Shown here piece after piece: positions 7,126 through 18,146 of a DNA stretch of 28,551 nucleotides (position 1 is its first letter; each line of letters starts with the position of its first letter). The position numbers and the translations under genes were made by a program. Source of the DNA: a virus; the IMG/VR virus record IMGVR_UViG_3300029319_000287, positions 2,679 to 31,229 of that record; one strand, given 5' to 3'. The notes beneath the pieces are model-generated. The model ran no database searches. It was not told where the DNA came from and saw only the letters and a program-made list of their open reading frames with translations.

Positions 7126-7722
7126 TTATCTCTCATCTTCGTAAAGTGGGATCCCAAATCTTTTTCCAACTTTAGAATCAGGACCACTTTGTCCTGCTTT
7201 TGGTATGTATGAGTAGTCAGATGGGACACCCTGCATAAGTTGGTTGTCCATGACTTGTGAAACCTGATGGGAATCGGGGTCTCTTCTAAAACCCATCTCA
7301 TTTTCATAGTCGATTGAGAACATGGTGAACACCATCTTATCATTACCTTCTTCAATTGTAATCTTTTCACCCCAAACAAAACCCCATTGTTTGAATTGTC
7401 TGTTTAGTTCGTCGACGACACCTTTGTCAGGTGGGTTTATAAGCATTATTGATTGTTCAAAAATGCCCATAAAATTTCCGCCAATACGAATAAACTTAAT
7501 TCCTCTCGCTTTTGCGGCCTTCTCTAGATCTCTTTTGAGATATTCGTTGTCTAAGGCTGTTGCTTGTTTGGCCATTGGATTTTGTCCGGACATGATAGCA
7601 ATTGTGTCAATGTTGGGGTCTTCACCTCTAAGTATTGACATTACCCTGTCGTATTTTGACATTCTGGCTTCGTCAATAACTTCCACTATTAACTGCTCTA
7701 ATTTGTTTTTAGTTAATCTCAT
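7126..7722 (-). CDS. Leader-tagged protein with DUF3293-like domain
   Basis: A 198-residue protein from the ATG at 7722, chosen because GGAG lies just upstream and because this start places the shared leader (MRLTKNKLEQLIVEVIDE|A) at the N-terminus; a longer in-frame start would read through the GroES-like gene. I-D-E|A at 16-19 is a candidate cleavage site. Residues about 41-122 show S-G-Q-N-P-M, an Asn at 59, F-E-Q-S (88-91) and a final Q-F-K-Q-W-G-F-V-W-G-E; this order resembles DUF3293 (N-P, N, E-x-S, F-Q-x-A blocks), which I offer only tentatively. The gene overlaps the GroES-like stop by 14 nt. An ACTATTTA motif lies 38 nt upstream inside that gene. Confidence 0.65.
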   Translation of the reverse strand: MRLTKNKLEQLIVEVIDEARMSKYDRVMSILRGEDPNIDTIAIMSGQNPMAKQATALDNEYLKRDLEKAAKARGIKFIRIGGNFMGIFEQSIMLINPPDKGVVDELNRQFKQWGFVWGEKITIEEGNDKMVFTMFSIDYENEMGFRRDPDSHQVSQVMDNQLMQGVPSDYSYIPKAGQSGPDSKVGKRFGIPLYEDER

Positions 7723-7996
7723 TCTCCAATCTCCCGTAGACGTAATTTTCTTGAACAAGGTAAATAGTCTCCAAATTCGCTTTTATTTCTTGAAGTGTGG
7801 TTCTATCTACAACAATTACATCACCCGGATTAAGATTTATTGAACAATCCTCGGCTAGCGAAACAATCTCGCAAATAGCATAAGGCTGCTTGGGTGGCTT
7901 ATAGTCATCGGGCATAACAAACAAAGGATCTTCCTTGCTTATCTCTTTTTCTCGGAGCTCCACCAAGATGTGCCTATTGTATGGTTTAAAATTCAT
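7709..7996 (-). CDS. GroES/gp31-like co-chaperonin
   Basis: A 95-residue protein, the size of GroES (97). It opens MNFKPYNRHILVEL, the equivalent of GroES 'MNIRPLHDRVIVK', then has a flexible loop region (about 18-32), a strand ICEIVSLAED (like G-E-V-L-A-V-G), NLNPGDVIVVDRT (like V-G-D-x-V-I-F) and a closing strand TIYLVQENYVYGRL (like L-I-M-x-E-x-D-I-L-A). Such phage co-chaperonins cap host GroEL, often to fold the major capsid protein. The mobile loop is short and the tail extends beyond the usual end. It is the first gene of a nine-gene overlapping operon and has its own promoter at 8031-8059. GGAGG lies 4 nt before the ATG. Confidence 0.8.
   Translation of the reverse strand: MNFKPYNRHILVELREKEISKEDPLFVMPDDYKPPKQPYAICEIVSLAEDCSINLNPGDVIVVDRTTLQEIKANLETIYLVQENYVYGRLENEIN
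7761..7768 (-). promoter_or_regulatory. Candidate late promoter element ACTATTTA (intragenic)
   Basis: Coding-strand ACTATTTA lies within the GroES-like gene, 38 nt before the ATG of the leader-tagged 7126-7722 gene. It is the only one of the four copies with a longer spacing, so it is the least certain. Confidence 0.3.
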
Positions 7997-8279: not shown

Positions 8280-10136
8280 TTAAAATATTTCACAGGATCC
8301 ACCGCCACAAGCGATTTCTCCACTTAAATCGGTTTCATCTGTTGTCTCTGTAATTAGGTCCAGATCAATGTTTTTTACCAATTCAAGCATTCTTTCGTAA
8401 GTTTCCTTGTCACAGTCCTCAAAAGGTGCTTGAACATATGTGCCACCATCGTAAGGCAATACGGACAATCCATTATAAACTTTTCGGTTTTTCCACATCC
8501 AGTTACCAACAGTTTCCCACTCATCATCTTTGACTGTGATGGTCGCAGAAACATTGTGAGTGTTGTTACCATTTTTGTGACCAGACTTGATCCATTCGTT
8601 AGAAACTTTCTTTACTCTCTCGAGCAAATCAATGGCGCTTTCGTGGCGCGTTATAGCCCCTTCAGGAGCTTTTTGAGGCACAGATAGGATAGCAGTGTCG
8701 TGTGGGCGGAAACGGCAGTCCTCGATCAATTCAGGCAGGTTCTGAACGAGATAATGGTAAATTGCCTCATTCTTTCCAACGCGAAGACGGCGAATGTAGT
8801 AATCGTTGTGCCATGCGTGAATACCACTTGATGTTCCAAGAGTCAAAGAGGTTGTTCCGGCTGGTTTGACACAAGTTTGTCGCGCTGCTTGTTTAATTCC
8901 AATCTGCATTGCGACTCTACGGTTCTCTTTGGAGACCTCAAGAGATGCTTTAGTCATGTCTAAATTAAGAACGCCGCCTGAAGCAATACCAGTCATTGAA
9001 ACTCCAATAAGAGCATCTCTTTCTGTATTTCTTTGCCATATTGGACGAAGATAATGGAAGTCTGTATAGGAGGCTTGTAAAGTCCCTATGAAGGATGCGG
9101 CTTTTGCTCGAGCATTAAGATCCTCTTGTGAGTCTACATCGGATACATTTATCTCAACCAAGTTACAGAATTGAAAAGGGCGGAGCCCAATCTCACAACA
9201 AGGATTACAGCCCCACTCTTTATCATTAGAGAAATAAAATCCGGGCTCTCCGGAACGAGACTCCTCGACTCGTTTCCAAAGGCGCCCAAAAGTTGGTTCA
9301 TCAATCTTGTGACGCATAACAACTACGGAATTATTTGCTCTTCCTCGCTGTGGATTGAGTTCCCACCAAGCACCCGCTTTCGCACTAAGCATGTTTTCGT
9401 CATCAGCAGAGAATAAGGAAATGAGAGCAGCGCGACGGATACCTCCAGCGAGAACCGCATCCGCAATATGGCAGATGATGTCATGCACCTCAATAGGAGC
9501 GAGTTTGTCACCATTTTCTTTAGCATCTAATATTCCCTCTACTTTTACTAAACATTCTTTGAGCGGTTGTGGGCCTGGTGCCTTTCCGCCGGATGTAACT
9601 AGTCTTGCACCTTTAGGACGGATATCTGAAAAATCAAAGCGTAGTTTGGAAGTGCCTTTAAAGTAAGATTGAATCAGTGCTTTCACAGCATCTGACCATC
9701 CTTCGATTGAATCTCCAATGAGAAAACGTCGAGTTCTCTTTGTGGAGGGTCTGTGAATTTCCGGAAGTTTCTCAACGTGATGATGTTGGACAGAGTATCC
9801 AACACCGGTTCCACCTAAAAGCAAAAACATGATCTCACCAAAAATACGTGGATCATCAGCAGGAGCATAAGCACAATTGAATATACGGTTTGGAGAAACG
9901 TCTATGGGTTTACCGCCAAACTGCATACTGCGCATAGAGGGTAAAACCTTTTTATCATGGACATACTCATATGCTTCCAATATTTCCTTTTGCAAACTAG
10001 GAAATTTTTTGATATGCATTTGTTTGTTTCTTGTTACTAACTCATCCCAATTTTCTCTACGATTTTTGTCCTCAAGAAATCGGGCATATTTCATGTGCAC
10101 GGTTATGTCTGATAATATTTTTTTCTCTAAATCCAT
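8280..10136 (-). CDS. nrdJ: Adenosylcobalamin-dependent (class II) ribonucleotide reductase
   Basis: A 618-residue protein that converts ribonucleoside triphosphates to deoxyribonucleotides with coenzyme B12. It follows the monomeric Lactobacillus leichmannii RTPR pattern: FNCAY with Cys88 (equivalent of C119), NPCCEI with Cys313 (C408, thiyl radical site) and FCNLVEIN with Cys324 (C419); the 11-residue spacing between the last two is preserved. The C-terminal CGGGSC pair (Cys610/Cys615) matches the redox-shuttling tail. It is about 120 residues shorter than RTPR, with about 64 of these lost between the first two active-site cysteines, where the effector-binding insertion lies. The ATG has GGAG 6 nt upstream, overlapping the helicase stop (TAGGAG). 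The host must supply or salvage B12. Confidence 0.93.
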   Translation of the reverse strand: MDLEKKILSDITVHMKYARFLEDKNRRENWDELVTRNKQMHIKKFPSLQKEILEAYEYVHDKKVLPSMRSMQFGGKPIDVSPNRIFNCAYAPADDPRIFGEIMFLLLGGTGVGYSVQHHHVEKLPEIHRPSTKRTRRFLIGDSIEGWSDAVKALIQSYFKGTSKLRFDFSDIRPKGARLVTSGGKAPGPQPLKECLVKVEGILDAKENGDKLAPIEVHDIICHIADAVLAGGIRRAALISLFSADDENMLSAKAGAWWELNPQRGRANNSVVVMRHKIDEPTFGRLWKRVEESRSGEPGFYFSNDKEWGCNPCCEIGLRPFQFCNLVEINVSDVDSQEDLNARAKAASFIGTLQASYTDFHYLRPIWQRNTERDALIGVSMTGIASGGVLNLDMTKASLEVSKENRRVAMQIGIKQAARQTCVKPAGTTSLTLGTSSGIHAWHNDYYIRRLRVGKNEAIYHYLVQNLPELIEDCRFRPHDTAILSVPQKAPEGAITRHESAIDLLERVKKVSNEWIKSGHKNGNNTHNVSATITVKDDEWETVGNWMWKNRKVYNGLSVLPYDGGTYVQAPFEDCDKETYERMLELVKNIDLDLITETTDETDLSGEIACGGGSCEIF

Positions 10137-13792: not shown

Positions 13793-14899
13793 TTAAACTT
13801 CTTCGGACTCTCCTTCAAGACCAAAGTTCTTGCCTTCAGTCTCAAATTTTCTAATGATTTCATCATCCATGATATCAAACACAACAGAGCGAAACTCTGG
13901 GTCTTGGAGCTTTTTGATCCACTGCGATCTTTGGAATTTGTATTCCTTGCCGTCTCGGTCATAAATTTTGTTCCAAGCACCGGCCTTAAAGCGATCAGAA
14001 CCTGATGCTCTTAGTGCTTCAAGCCACGATTCTTCATCTTGGATGCCAACGTCTTTGCCCCAGAGAATCTTAAAACCACAAGTGCGACCTTCAGACCCGA
14101 AGCGAGACTTCTCAACTTTCACCTTGACCTCAGAACCGACTCTAAGACCGGATGGGTCAGTGACATAAGAGGCTTTTGCTTTACGCTTTGTAAGCCAAAT
14201 ACGAAGCGAACAGAAATATTCAATTGCCTTTCCACCAGGCGCAACATAAGGTGTTGTCATGGCTTCTGCGATATTTGAAGTAATGTTCGTCTTAAGTTGA
14301 TTGATTATCAACAATGTGCATTGTTGATTTGCCAATGGAACAATAAGTTTTGGGAATGCTTTCGCGAATATCCGAGGCTTTACTGCCATTGACGATTGAG
14401 GATTAAAATCACCTTCTAAATCTTTTTCAGAAGATGTTGCTGCGATTGAGTCCCAGATAAACAAAAACTGTGTATCTGGATACTGACCCATTAAATCCTC
14501 AATGGTTTCCAAGGTTTTCTCTACCGAAACTGCTTGGATGTATAAGAAATCATTATTAATATCAATACCAGAGTTCTTTAAGAACAAAGGATCAATAGCG
14601 GACTCTGCATCGAAGTAGACGACACAATGTCCTTTCTTTTGTGCTTGTGCAGCAATTTGACAAGCCATGTAAGACTTACCAGCCGATGAAAGACCAGCAA
14701 GTTCGGTGACCTTCCCAACGGGAATACCAGCCATCTTACCTCGGCAGACAATAGAGTCCAACCAGCGTGAGCCAGTTGGAATCCATTCTTTGACTTCAGT
14801 AGGATTGTCTTCATTTAAGTCGTGGGCTATATCTAACCCGACTTTTTTATTGACGAATTTCTTCATCGCATTAATGTCGATCTTTCCTGCTTTGGTCAT
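13793..14899 (-). CDS. uvsX: UvsX/RecA-family recombinase
   Basis: A 368-residue strand-exchange ATPase, close to T4 UvsX (391). Walker A is GLSSAGKS (69-76), the catalytic Glu lies in YFDAESA (Glu99, RecA E96 equivalent), and Walker B is FLFIWDS (145-151). The L2 region with N-Q-L-K-T-N-I and GGKAIEYFCSLRIWL matches the RecA core. The acidic C-terminus (EGESEEV) resembles RecA/UvsX tails. It would act with the gp32-like SSB (15143-15913) in recombination-dependent replication and repair. The ATG overlaps the TAA of the small lipoprotein-like gene (TAAATG), with GAGGAGG upstream. Confidence 0.93.
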   Translation of the reverse strand: MTKAGKIDINAMKKFVNKKVGLDIAHDLNEDNPTEVKEWIPTGSRWLDSIVCRGKMAGIPVGKVTELAGLSSAGKSYMACQIAAQAQKKGHCVVYFDAESAIDPLFLKNSGIDINNDFLYIQAVSVEKTLETIEDLMGQYPDTQFLFIWDSIAATSSEKDLEGDFNPQSSMAVKPRIFAKAFPKLIVPLANQQCTLLIINQLKTNITSNIAEAMTTPYVAPGGKAIEYFCSLRIWLTKRKAKASYVTDPSGLRVGSEVKVKVEKSRFGSEGRTCGFKILWGKDVGIQDEESWLEALRASGSDRFKAGAWNKIYDRDGKEYKFQRSQWIKKLQDPEFRSVVFDIMDDEIIRKFETEGKNFGLEGESEEV

Positions 14900-15142: not shown

Positions 15143-15913
15143 TTAATCTTCTTGCATAAAAGCAGCGAAAGCGGCATCGACGTCAGAGTCTTTTTTCTTA
15201 AACTTCTGTGTCTCAGACGAAGAGGACTCTGCTGAAGAGTCGGAGGACAGATAACCATCCAGCAAAGTCTGGACCTCTTCTACTGTTTTAACATCAAATA
15301 GATTATCGATGTCAGGAACAGAATCTAACAAGTCTTGGCAGTCAGCAATCGAATCGTCACAGAGGACAGAAGGACGACGTCGAGGCTGTAACGCGGTCTT
15401 TGGAAAAGATCCGGGTGTGCCAGGAATTGTGTAGGTAAGTTTAATATCAGTCCCAGTTTGAGGATCGGTGATATCTCCGTAATCCGGATCTAAGACGTAT
15501 CCCAATAGGGTCTCATACGCTGTTTTACCATAAGCCCATATTTTTACTCCGTCACTTTCATTGCCACGGATTAGGACTGGTGAATAATACCGCTTTCGAG
15601 CAAACAACTTTTTAGCTTCATTCTTTAGATTTTGATCGTCATTTTCAACACCATCTCGCCAAAGCTTTGATGCAAAGTCACAAATTGGACATTCGCCTCC
15701 GTCGTTACGCTTATTGCAATAGATTCCAGGGTTTTTTCCCACATTATAGTGGAAATGAAACTCACGGAACGGGTCGCCATCTTTTGTTGGAAGAATTCTT
15801 ACCATTTGGTCTCCAGCTTTTGGTCGCCACATTGTAGATTTACTTCCGGATGGTTTCCCACCATTTTTAGATGCGTTCAATTTAGCACGCATTGCTTCAA
15901 TATTAATAGCCAT
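15143..15913 (-). CDS. Single-stranded DNA-binding protein (T4 gp32-like)
   Basis: A 256-residue protein. A basic N-terminus (residues 1-32, role in cooperative binding in gp32) leads into an OB-fold. The zinc ribbon is visible as FHFHYN (His53/His55), YCNKR (Cys66) and CPICDF (Cys75, Cys78), the same His-Cys-Cys-Cys arrangement and order as T4 gp32. The last 60 residues are Ser/Asp/Glu-rich and end DAAFAAFMQED, the acidic protein-interaction tail. It coats ssDNA and recruits the helicase, recombinase and polymerase. AGGAG lies 7 nt before the ATG. The leader of about 75 nt between its promoter and the start is AT-rich and, as in T4, could be an autoregulatory operator. Confidence 0.9.
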   Translation of the reverse strand: MAINIEAMRAKLNASKNGGKPSGSKSTMWRPKAGDQMVRILPTKDGDPFREFHFHYNVGKNPGIYCNKRNDGGECPICDFASKLWRDGVENDDQNLKNEAKKLFARKRYYSPVLIRGNESDGVKIWAYGKTAYETLLGYVLDPDYGDITDPQTGTDIKLTYTIPGTPGSFPKTALQPRRRPSVLCDDSIADCQDLLDSVPDIDNLFDVKTVEEVQTLLDGYLSSDSSAESSSSETQKFKKKDSDVDAAFAAFMQED

Positions 15914-16091: not shown

Positions 16092-16165
16092 TACACTTGA
16101 TAGGATTCGAACCTATGACCGTCCGCTTAGAAGGCGGATGCTCTATCCAGCTGAGCTACAAGTGC
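16092..16165 (-). tRNA. tRNA-Arg (anticodon UCU)
   Basis: A 74-base cloverleaf. Acceptor GCACTTG pairs with CAAGTGT (first pair G-U), D-arm GCTC...GAGC, anticodon stem TCCGC/GCGGA around loop CTTCTAA with anticodon TCT, T-arm ATAGG-TTCGAAT-CCTAT, discriminator A. CCA is not encoded. It reads AGA/AGG, codons frequent in these AT-rich genes, so it likely supplements a host with few such tRNAs. It is probably cut from the transcript of the WYL_2-like gene 43 nt upstream. Confidence 0.95.
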
Positions 16166-16207: not shown

Positions 16208-16471
16208 TTAGAAAAGTTCAACTGTTACATCTTTGTTCATTGACGAAAGACTTCCAACTTGAGTGTTGGAGTTAAATGTTCGATATGCTTGACGATCAAT
16301 ATCGTAAACGGTTTCCATACCTTCACTAAGCTTTCGTGGTCGAATCACGGATGGGAATGTTCCCTTTGGTGCTTCATCAGGTCGGATAAAATTCATAGTT
16401 CGTCGGTTACCTCGTTTTGTTACAAAGGTTCCTGTATATACTGTTGTGTTGATAGAATTGTTGTTACTCAT
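16208..16471 (-). CDS. Small WYL_2/DUF2693-like protein
   Basis: An 87-residue protein. It contains VYTGTFVTKRGNRRTMNFIR (11-30) and LSEGMETVYDIDRQAYRTFN (48-67): the pattern Y-T-G-T-F-x-K-x-G-x-x-R-T-M and G-M-E-x-V-Y-D-x-x-x-x-x-R-x-F-N that I associate with the phage family DUF2693 (WYL_2, a small SH3/Sm-like barrel). Members are common in T4-like phages and their exact role is unknown; ligand or nucleic acid binding is assumed. The ATG has GGAGGG 3 nt upstream. It follows the promoter at 16501-16529 and precedes the tRNA. Confidence 0.7.
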   Translation of the reverse strand: MSNNNSINTTVYTGTFVTKRGNRRTMNFIRPDEAPKGTFPSVIRPRKLSEGMETVYDIDRQAYRTFNSNTQVGSLSSMNKDVTVELF

Positions 16472-17158: not shown

Positions 17159-17337
17159 TCATCCTCCAATTCTTTTAGAACTTTATGAAGTCTCACGATC
17201 ATGTCGTTTGCTTCAAATATTTTTTCAACAATAAATTTCATCTCTACTTCGTTTAGGTCATCGACGATGATTGAGTTTAAAGCTATTTTTTCAAATCTTT
17301 CCAGTCTCTTTAGTTCGTGCATTATTTGTTTTCTCAT
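17155..17337 (-). CDS. Small helical protein next to tubulin-like gene
   Basis: A 60-residue, all-helical, Leu/Glu/Lys-rich protein (heptad-like spacing in RLERFEKIALNSIIVDDLNE and IVRLHKVLKELEDE). The ATG overlaps the tubulin-like stop (ATGA), with AGGAG 8 nt upstream. Tight coupling to the GTPase suggests a partner or adaptor, as TubZ is paired with a small DNA-binding TubR, but no helix-turn-helix is recognisable, so this is only a context guess. Confidence 0.6.
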   Translation of the reverse strand: MRKQIMHELKRLERFEKIALNSIIVDDLNEVEMKFIVEKIFEANDMIVRLHKVLKELEDE

Positions 17338-18146
17338 GTCACCGTCTCCTGTATATAATGAGTGTAATGAATAGAGTAAAAATGGCTTTCTTCTGAAGAT
17401 CTCCAGATTGCAAATGAAGTATCTCTACCTTTCTCTTTGTTTTCTCGGACAAGCCCTTGGCAATTCGGAATAACTTGTGAGTCATTGTCTAAGTCTTCCT
17501 CCTCTATATTAATAATATAACACGTTTCGGTTATGTTGTCAAGTGCAAACATTAAATTTTCTTCTTCGTGAAACTTTCCAAAGCCAATTGTCGATATTCT
17601 AGAAATATCTTTTTTCTCGTGAAGCTTTCCAAAATCAGGATCTACGTGTTTGCAATACATTAAATTTTGTATCGTGCTGTATATAAAGTAATTAACCTTT
17701 TCATAATATTTTAGCGTTGTGCCGGAGCCAATTAAGTTAATCAGTTGTTTATTATCTAGGATCACAAACTCAGCGACCATACCAGATCTAGCATATTCTT
17801 GCAAAATTCCAAAGTGAACCTTGTGTCTCAATTTTTCTTCTTGAGAGCAAAATTCAAGATCGGGGACAATATAATATATAGTTGTTTTAAAGCCTCTCAG
17901 AGCCTCTAGGACACGTAGTGTCGCACCAGCTATCTTACCAGACCCACAAACAAATAAACACGCTTCATCGTGCGATTTCAACCCTCTCTGTTTAAATGCA
18001 AACTCTACTTGATCATATTCTTCCACGGATTGTTTTTTATCTATTCCATTTCCCGCATCTAAAGTGATAATCTTATAATTTTTGCTATGAGGCTTAAATA
18101 AGGATGCTATATTACTTCCTGCTTGTCCTAAACCAATCATTAACAT
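17334..18146 (-). CDS. Divergent tubulin/FtsZ-superfamily GTPase
   Basis: A 270-residue protein. It starts at the superfamily's first nucleotide loop, MIGLGQAGSNIASLF (T1, 3-17; compare FtsZ GVGGAGGNA, tubulin GQAG). IITLDAGNG (26-34) fits T2. CLFVCGSGKIAGATLRVLEA (63-82) occupies the tubulin-signature position (GGGTGTGAAP) but with G-S-G-K-I-A-G-A. TIYYIVPDLEF, HFGILQEYA and EFVILDNKQLINLI parallel FtsZ strands and helices including 'IVIPNDRLL'. VNYFIYSTIQNLM precedes HVDPDFGK (167-174), the T7-like catalytic loop. Phage relatives form filaments that position DNA or replication centres. It is shorter than PhuZ (about 315). AGGAG precedes the ATG. Superfamily call fairly secure; polymerisation unproven. 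Confidence 0.68.
   Translation of the reverse strand: MLMIGLGQAGSNIASLFKPHSKNYKIITLDAGNGIDKKQSVEEYDQVEFAFKQRGLKSHDEACLFVCGSGKIAGATLRVLEALRGFKTTIYYIVPDLEFCSQEEKLRHKVHFGILQEYARSGMVAEFVILDNKQLINLIGSGTTLKYYEKVNYFIYSTIQNLMYCKHVDPDFGKLHEKKDISRISTIGFGKFHEEENLMFALDNITETCYIINIEEEDLDNDSQVIPNCQGLVRENKEKGRDTSFAIWRSSEESHFYSIHYTHYIQETVT
17514..17542 (-). promoter_or_regulatory. Intragenic sigma70-type promoter inside tubulin-like gene
   Basis: TTGACA (17542-17537), 17-nt spacer, TGTTATATT with -10 TATATT (17519-17514), within codons 202-211 of the tubulin-like gene. It would boost expression of the two downstream genes independently. Confidence 0.6.

Follow-up and report, generated by a model that had tools for sequence, protein, structure and literature searches.

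A predicted, degenerate tubulin-fold protein family encoded between the DNA polymerase and SSB genes of uncultured phages

The window, a stretch of 28,551 nucleotides, is part of an IMG/VR virus fragment of 31,229 bases (IMGVR_UViG_3300029319_000287) and contains a block of collinear minus-strand genes. The block encodes a ribonucleotide reductase, a DnaB-like helicase, a 5'-3' exonuclease, a RecA/UvsX-like recombinase, a gp32-like SSB, and a family A DNA polymerase, and baseplate and tape-measure genes lie beyond these replication genes. The gene studied here is a member of the block (Table 1). An earlier note on this DNA had given its extent and its length of 270 residues exactly; the strand is the minus strand, the plus strand at 17334-18146 carrying many stops, and an AGGAG-like site lies ahead of the ATG. 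The same note had placed the gene beside the DNA polymerase gene. The two are separated in the window by three small ORFs (about 570 nt); across the family, the polymerase gene is the one fixed point upstream. The 82-, 60-, and 164-aa neighbours found in the window are present in 31, 40, and 20 of 263 family loci, respectively. The 60-aa helical ORF, which had been proposed as a partner of the protein, is thus accessory rather than a general partner.

Several other features of the window were recorded. Between the tubulin-like gene and the SSB gene lies an 87-aa ORF (16208-16471), kept in 98 of the 263 loci and matched by only a weak PHROG of unknown function; a tRNA-Arg (TCT) at 16092-16165 separates it from the SSB gene. 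The ribonucleotide reductase (8280-10136) had as its best NCBIfam match the adenosylcobalamin-dependent class II model TIGR02505 (E 2.7e-79, below the cut-off), and a GroES-like co-chaperonin is encoded at 7709-7996 (PHROG E 1.4e-6). Five minus-strand frames, starting at 1153, 1605, 2768, 3280, and 13700, have in common the start tag M-[KRN]-[LVI]-T-xxx-L-[KQE]-[QR]-[LMI]-I-xx-E, and a similar sixth tag opens the ORF at 7126-7758. The tag is similar to the T4 capsid-targeting sequence, which the prohead protease cleaves, and by this analogy the tagged proteins may be packaged into the phage head.

Table 1 Genes of the window and elements of the putative nucleotide-binding pocket
Feature	Position in window	Strand	Basis and remarks
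Tubulin/FtsZ-superfamily protein (predicted), 270 aa	17334..18146	-	ORF; AF2 model; VIA match; FtsZ profile match
Loop T1, residues 5-12 GLGQAGSN	18111..18134	-	G5, G7, G10 each in 179/181 members, 2 gaps
Loop T4, residues 68-74 GSGKIAG, replacing GGGTGTG	17925..17945	-	Register set by hhalign against FtsZ
N132, aligned with the Asn of FtsZ IPN (S5/T6 region)	17751..17753	-	181/181; hhalign register
H7 start, Y148-xxx-N152, aligned with FtsZ F-xxx-D/N	17691..17705	-	Residue counts in 181 members
Degenerate T7 loop, residues 169-174 DPDFGK	17625..17642	-	Register set by a weak HMMER alignment with FtsZ (E 1.7)
Helical ORF, 60 aa	17155..17337	-	Overlaps the gene's stop as ATGA; 40/263 loci; accessory
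Family A DNA polymerase, 395 aa	18717..19904	-	Pfam DNA_pol_A E 6e-10, PHROG 4e-21; fixed upstream neighbour
gp32-like SSB	15143..15913	-	Pfam gp32 E 3e-15, PHROG 1e-29; fixed downstream neighbour
UvsX/RecA-like recombinase	13793..14899	-	PHROG E 1.6e-57; same module, farther along

Relatives of the protein are numerous in IMG/VR. The first scan gave 27 loci with identities of 40-86%, and profile scans with the alignments A1, A2, and A3 gave at least 591, 579, and 595 confirmed relatives, lists that share members to some extent and are not additive. Among 266 loci examined, 263 held the family ORF; ten of these ORFs fell outside 240-330 aa and were excluded, and the 253 full-length sequences were reduced at 90% non-redundancy to a set of 181, since the same contig often contributed several loci. 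L101, which has two stops, was excluded from the 85-sequence set used for profile comparison, and L017 was excluded from A1. The three computable pairs out of seven had dN/dS values of 0.06-0.13. With relatives across IMG/VR and low dN/dS, the ORF is not a chance one.

Structure prediction was carried out for the window protein and for L108, a relative at 30% identity to it. The AF2 model of the window protein (pLDDT 81.5, pTM 0.83) runs from alternating beta-alpha units through a long helix (residues 144-167) into a mostly beta second domain, a succession of elements in keeping with the superfamily. Foldseek against the PDB gave FtsZ as its best matches (E 1.3e-6), and VIA-align gave CetZ with Z 16.7 (251 aligned, rmsd 4.0), TubZ 16.3, FtsZ 15.9, and tubulins about 15, with 245-262 of the 270 residues aligned at rmsd 3.7-4.0. 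The L108 AlphaFold model was better (pLDDT 87.8, pTM 0.87): CetZ was matched with Z 24.6 (259 aligned, rmsd 3.2), FtsZ with 23.1, TubZ with 22.6, and tubulins with about 21, rmsd to solved structures was 2.9-3.9, and all 711 aligned chains had Z of at least 8. Taking both models together, the listed structural alignments cover 245-277 residues, with rmsd of 3-4 Å to the solved structures and shallow input alignments (18 sequences for the window protein, 13 for L108), and the identity to solved superfamily members in them is just 10-17%. Both models thus present the two-domain tubulin fold, with a Rossmann-like N-terminal domain, a central H7, and a C-terminal activation domain. In the viral model library BFVD, the top matches of L108 (E 2.8e-11 to 3e-6) were the FtsZ/tubulin models A0A6J5RW92, A0A8S5UFG9, and the tubulin-like protein of Edwardsiella phage pEt-SU; among the first seven, all named proteins were FtsZ, cell-division, or tubulin proteins. 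These matches share no more than 16% identity and are 315-452 aa long, and none is a close family member.

At the sequence level the relationship emerges only with profiles. Single-sequence searches with the window protein gave a best E of 0.077 in Pfam and 0.1 in PHROG, and no match in NCBIfam or the PDB. The Pfam Tubulin model matched 0 of 18 members in one set and 2 of 13 in another (best E 0.0048), and it missed the family in all seven large records searched. When the 85-sequence family profile was compared with 23 FtsZs by hhalign, the match had Prob 92.7 and P 4.2e-7 over 154 columns and was collinear through T1, T4, T5, T6, and H7; a smaller set of 17 FtsZs gave Prob 78. The same family profile against controls gave Prob 18.8 for TrkA_N (84 columns) and 6.2 for saccharopine dehydrogenase (27 columns). 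Cross-controls gave 0.2 for TrkA_N with FtsZ, 3.4 for saccharopine dehydrogenase with FtsZ, and 97 for TrkA_N with saccharopine dehydrogenase. Sequence searches also showed NAD Rossmann domains to be no worse a match than FtsZ for the N-terminal 30-90 residues. Pfam TrkA_N matched 8 of 13 members (best E 8.8e-6); a plain PDB profile search listed dehydrogenase/reductase N-termini first (best E 0.019) and FtsZ third (E 1.7), and another listed dehydrogenases/reductases (best E 0.028) and no FtsZ. These hits are confined to the N-terminal part, in which GxGxxG is common to both folds, and the NAD(P)-binding Rossmann families gave no profile match over the full domain. Membership of the tubulin/FtsZ superfamily, which the earlier note had proposed, is therefore strongly supported by predicted fold and controlled profile comparison; the N-terminal Rossmann and activation domains are both present in the models, and no other NTPase family could be clearly assigned.

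Within this fold, the elements that would surround the guanine nucleotide are well conserved. Loop T1 and the Gly-rich loop named in the note were both found in the translation. N132 lies in a segment that had been written I-x-x-x-D-N-K-x-L; the segment is there, but its spacing is I-x-D-N-K-x-L (ILDNKQL, residues 129-135). At the start of H7, position 152 is N in 179 and D in two of the 181 members, and position 148 is Y in 151 and F in 19; the pair resembles the Y-xxx-N of tubulin. Q116, R120, and L77 are each invariant (181/181), and near-invariant residues are present in both domains. The T4 loop is altered, as had been noticed in the window protein, and the change holds throughout: the canonical GGGTG(S/T)G occurs in 0 of 181 members, the commonest forms being GSGKVAG and GSGKIAG, and a loose pattern, G-x-[GS]-x-[IVC]-[STA]-[GASC], fits 157. 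Position 71, the site of the signature Thr, is highly variable (K in 86, T in 11). Position 72, the fifth of the signature, is I in 106, V in 65, and C in six members and never G, and this loss of the fifth-position Gly in 181/181 is the distinctive feature.

The catalytic side is less well preserved. With DPDFGK aligned to FtsZ NLDFAD, the window protein has D169 and D171, the latter equivalent to D210, so that the D-x-D reported for its T7-like loop stands for this protein (D-P-D, 169-171). It is not a family feature: an acid occurs at position 169 in 101 members, at 171 in 42, and at both in 15 of 181, and position 174, equivalent to D213, is mostly T, N, S, or K, with no common acid. Segment 164-183 is exactly 20 aa long in 181/181 members and, by eye, about six residues shorter than in the FtsZ L114; neither model has a helix of four or more residues in it past the end of H7. 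We read this short, helix-free segment as an apparent loss of helix H8, which is absent from both predicted models. A long C-terminal tail is likewise absent, with at most 16 residues past position 266 in the 181 members. One subfamily (L104, L108, L183, and relatives) keeps an acidic C-terminal tail, LLDDQDIS or similar, possibly a docking peptide; the window protein is without it. In S. aureus FtsZ, the T7 mutations N208L, D210N, and D213N suppress assembly (PMC8936486). With N132 and N152 conserved, T7 not conserved, and H8 missing from the models, the pocket seems, by residue counts and models, to have retained its guanine side, whereas the catalytic side that activates the neighboring subunit seems to have decayed. 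Since D171 is kept in the window protein, its own lineage may hydrolyze GTP.

The genomic position of the gene is nearly invariant. Of the 149 non-redundant loci with more than 1300 bases upstream, all have polA on that side, no farther than 4 kb away and on the gene's own strand; in 72 the two genes abut or overlap (30 nt or less). Downstream, SSB was present in 121 of 122 loci with more than 2500 bases on that side, the miss (L003) being a contig end. Counting all 263 loci with a limit of 1.5 kb, polA was found in 197 of 203, and the other six had it at 1.6-2.6 kb; the recombinase was found in 163 of 263, flanks often being too short. To remove selection on the tubulin-like gene itself, loci were also fetched through polA and through SSB, each list holding the best 80 of 597 confirmed relatives. 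Leaving aside loci without room (9/80 and 23/80, respectively), the gene was at the expected place in 71 of 71 loci retrieved through the polymerase and in 56 of 57 retrieved through SSB, where the miss, L428, has 1747 bases upstream. Because these best-80 lists overlap earlier contigs, the result speaks for the clade and not for every polymerase relative, and distant polymerases without the gene could exist beyond them. Identity of the tubulin-like protein to the window protein or to L108 tracks polA and SSB identity (Spearman 0.71-0.79, 117 loci each), the pattern that vertical inheritance would give. The place between polA and SSB suggests that the protein works in phage DNA replication; this is an argument by association, made within a module whose genes all run collinearly on one strand.

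In the carrier phages the tubulin-like gene is a core gene with one clear copy per genome: all eight large records (102-194 kb) held one strong copy, and one of the eight had a second, marginal match. The terminase of L342, a record that carries the gene, is nearest to those of Flavobacterium phage immuto (46%) and Microcystis phage Mel-JY01 (43%), followed by T4-like cyanophages (32%), and on this sequence evidence the carriers are placed near T4-related phages, as uncultured tailed phages with records reaching 100-194 kb. The family profile, positive in the eight family records, found nothing in six other records including immuto and Mel-JY01. In place of the gene, the polA-SSB interval holds two short ORFs in immuto, and two short ORFs plus an S-AdoMet lyase-matching protein in Mel-JY01. 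SPO1-like phages, inspected because polA and SSB are close together there, have just small ORFs between the two. A tblastn search of 50,697 deposited phage records with three family members gave no convincing relative: the window protein had a single match at E 0.9, and L108 and L092 had none. The sole match in genome_contigs, L109 (CP070664.1, labeled a WOR-3 MAG chromosome), was considered as a bacterial gene and rejected; with its polA, gene, SSB, and recombinase order and flanking N runs, it has the look of phage sequence that ended up in a bacterial MAG.

Comparison with known systems places the family apart from each of them. Like FtsZ and CetZ, it has the two-domain fold over nearly the whole protein and the Asn and Phe/Tyr-xxx-Asp/Asn positions on the guanine side, and with FtsZ it shares the collinear T1-H7 profile. 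Unlike FtsZ and CetZ, it is without GGGTG(S/T)G, conserved T7 aspartates, H8 (in the models), and a C-terminal linker and tail, and it sits in a phage replication module. With PhuZ and TubZ it shares the character of a phage or plasmid tubulin-superfamily protein, TubZ matching the two models at Z 16.3 and 22.6. The earlier note held that phage tubulins keep the signature; PhuZ of phiKZ (L136, 3931-4914) instead reads GGASGST, so its signature is altered as well, and GGGTG(S/T)G motif searches would miss it too. PhuZ differs from the family in that its GTPase site is competent and its C-terminus forms an acidic knuckle (Aylett 2013, PMC3678025), and in lying about 7.7 kb from the DNA polymerase gene in phiKZ. 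PhuZ (hhalign Prob 0.6) and phage G gp138, tried as single-sequence profile partners, gave no usable score, and the family profile had no match in the phiKZ or phage G records. The FtsZl1 and FtsZl2 families, described by Makarova and Koonin 2010 (PMC2875224), are likewise divergent superfamily members recognized through profiles and context. They keep GGGTG(S/T)G and carry long extra domains, and T6-H7 is not identifiable in FtsZl1; the present family keeps T6-H7, has lost the loop, and is of minimal size. FtsZl2 was found there by a GGGTG(S/T)G search, which cannot find the present family since the signature is absent.

Our literature search, with most subscription journals outside its scope, gave no recognized description of the family. 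Aylett 2013 (PMC3678025) counts just two phage tubulin/FtsZ-like proteins as previously known and regards the phiKZ TubZ/PhuZ GTPase site as competent, a 2025 survey treats tubulin as a mark of Chimalliviridae, a marine jumbo-phage study places tubulin in the phiKZ-like group, and a jumbo-phage overview describes two distinct FtsZ/tubulin representatives. With both the T4 signature and the T7-H8 element failing, we call the present proteins a new degenerate family within the known superfamily, neither PhuZ, TubZ, nor FtsZ.

On balance, the protein is probably a guanine-nucleotide-binding, weakly or non-hydrolyzing tubulin-fold factor of phage DNA replication, representing a large unrecognized family. 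GTP or GDP would be bound through T1, T4, N132, Y148, and N152, and hydrolysis would be slow or nil because the T7-H8 element that activates the neighboring subunit has decayed. A shape that depends on the nucleotide, either in the single protein or in a polymer that is short or non-dynamic, would serve phage DNA replication, perhaps by organizing or holding in place the replicating genome or the polymerase-SSB complex.

The main rival is an active cytomotive filament like PhuZ/TubZ, polymerizing with GTP, hydrolyzing it at a rearranged site, and moving or centering the replicating phage DNA. We consider this unlikely, although both tubulin domains are there in the predicted models, near-invariant residues occur in each, and the window lineage keeps D169 and D171. 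PhuZ of phiKZ, an established filament (PMC3678025), likewise has a non-canonical signature. Against a filament stand the pairing of T7 acids in 15/181 only, a position 174 without a common acid, the H8 missing from both models, and the lack of a tail beyond 16 residues past 266; single T7 mutations abolish FtsZ assembly (PMC8936486). Another rival is a scaffold or adaptor, independent of nucleotide, that retains the tubulin fold alone. The degenerate signature loop of all members and its highly variable position 71 fit such a protein, but the T1 glycines, N132, and N152 stay nearly invariant down to about 28% identity, as expected for a pocket in use, which makes the nucleotide-independent scaffold improbable.

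Two further readings carry little weight. Phages make FtsZ inhibitors, and a protein homologous to FtsZ could in principle cap or co-assemble with host filaments and stop division. We regard such a poison as very improbable: in almost all loci with enough flanking sequence the gene belongs to the replication module and not to the early takeover genes, and its product has only the 10-17% identity to solved superfamily members given above. An NAD(P)-binding Rossmann protein with no tubulin relation would account for the weak Pfam TrkA_N and saccharopine-dehydrogenase matches over the first 30-115 residues and for the dehydrogenases and reductases (E 0.02-0.03) among the best profile-PDB hits. 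Those matches span a single beta-alpha unit or, at the most, roughly one third of the protein, whereas the FtsZ match reaches H7 with far better statistics than the Rossmann controls, and the C-terminal domain is tubulin-like. Profile controls and C-terminal domain together rule this reading out for practical purposes, and we give it next to no credence.

The preferred reading, a tubulin-fold factor that binds guanine nucleotide with little or no hydrolysis, can be carried one step further. Tentatively, and with somewhat less than even expectation, we propose that a nucleotide-binding, hydrolysis-dead tubulin is an obligatory replisome organizer, and not a dynamic filament, across an abundant T4-related phage lineage. 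On this reading, the family has so far escaped notice because the defining signature of its superfamily is gone. The finding puts a tubulin-like gene at a constant position within the replication module of a different, apparently common phage group. If the protein does bind nucleotide without hydrolyzing it, it would show what the tubulin fold does once its dynamics are lost, and one short gene makes the organization of replication in the carrier phages testable.
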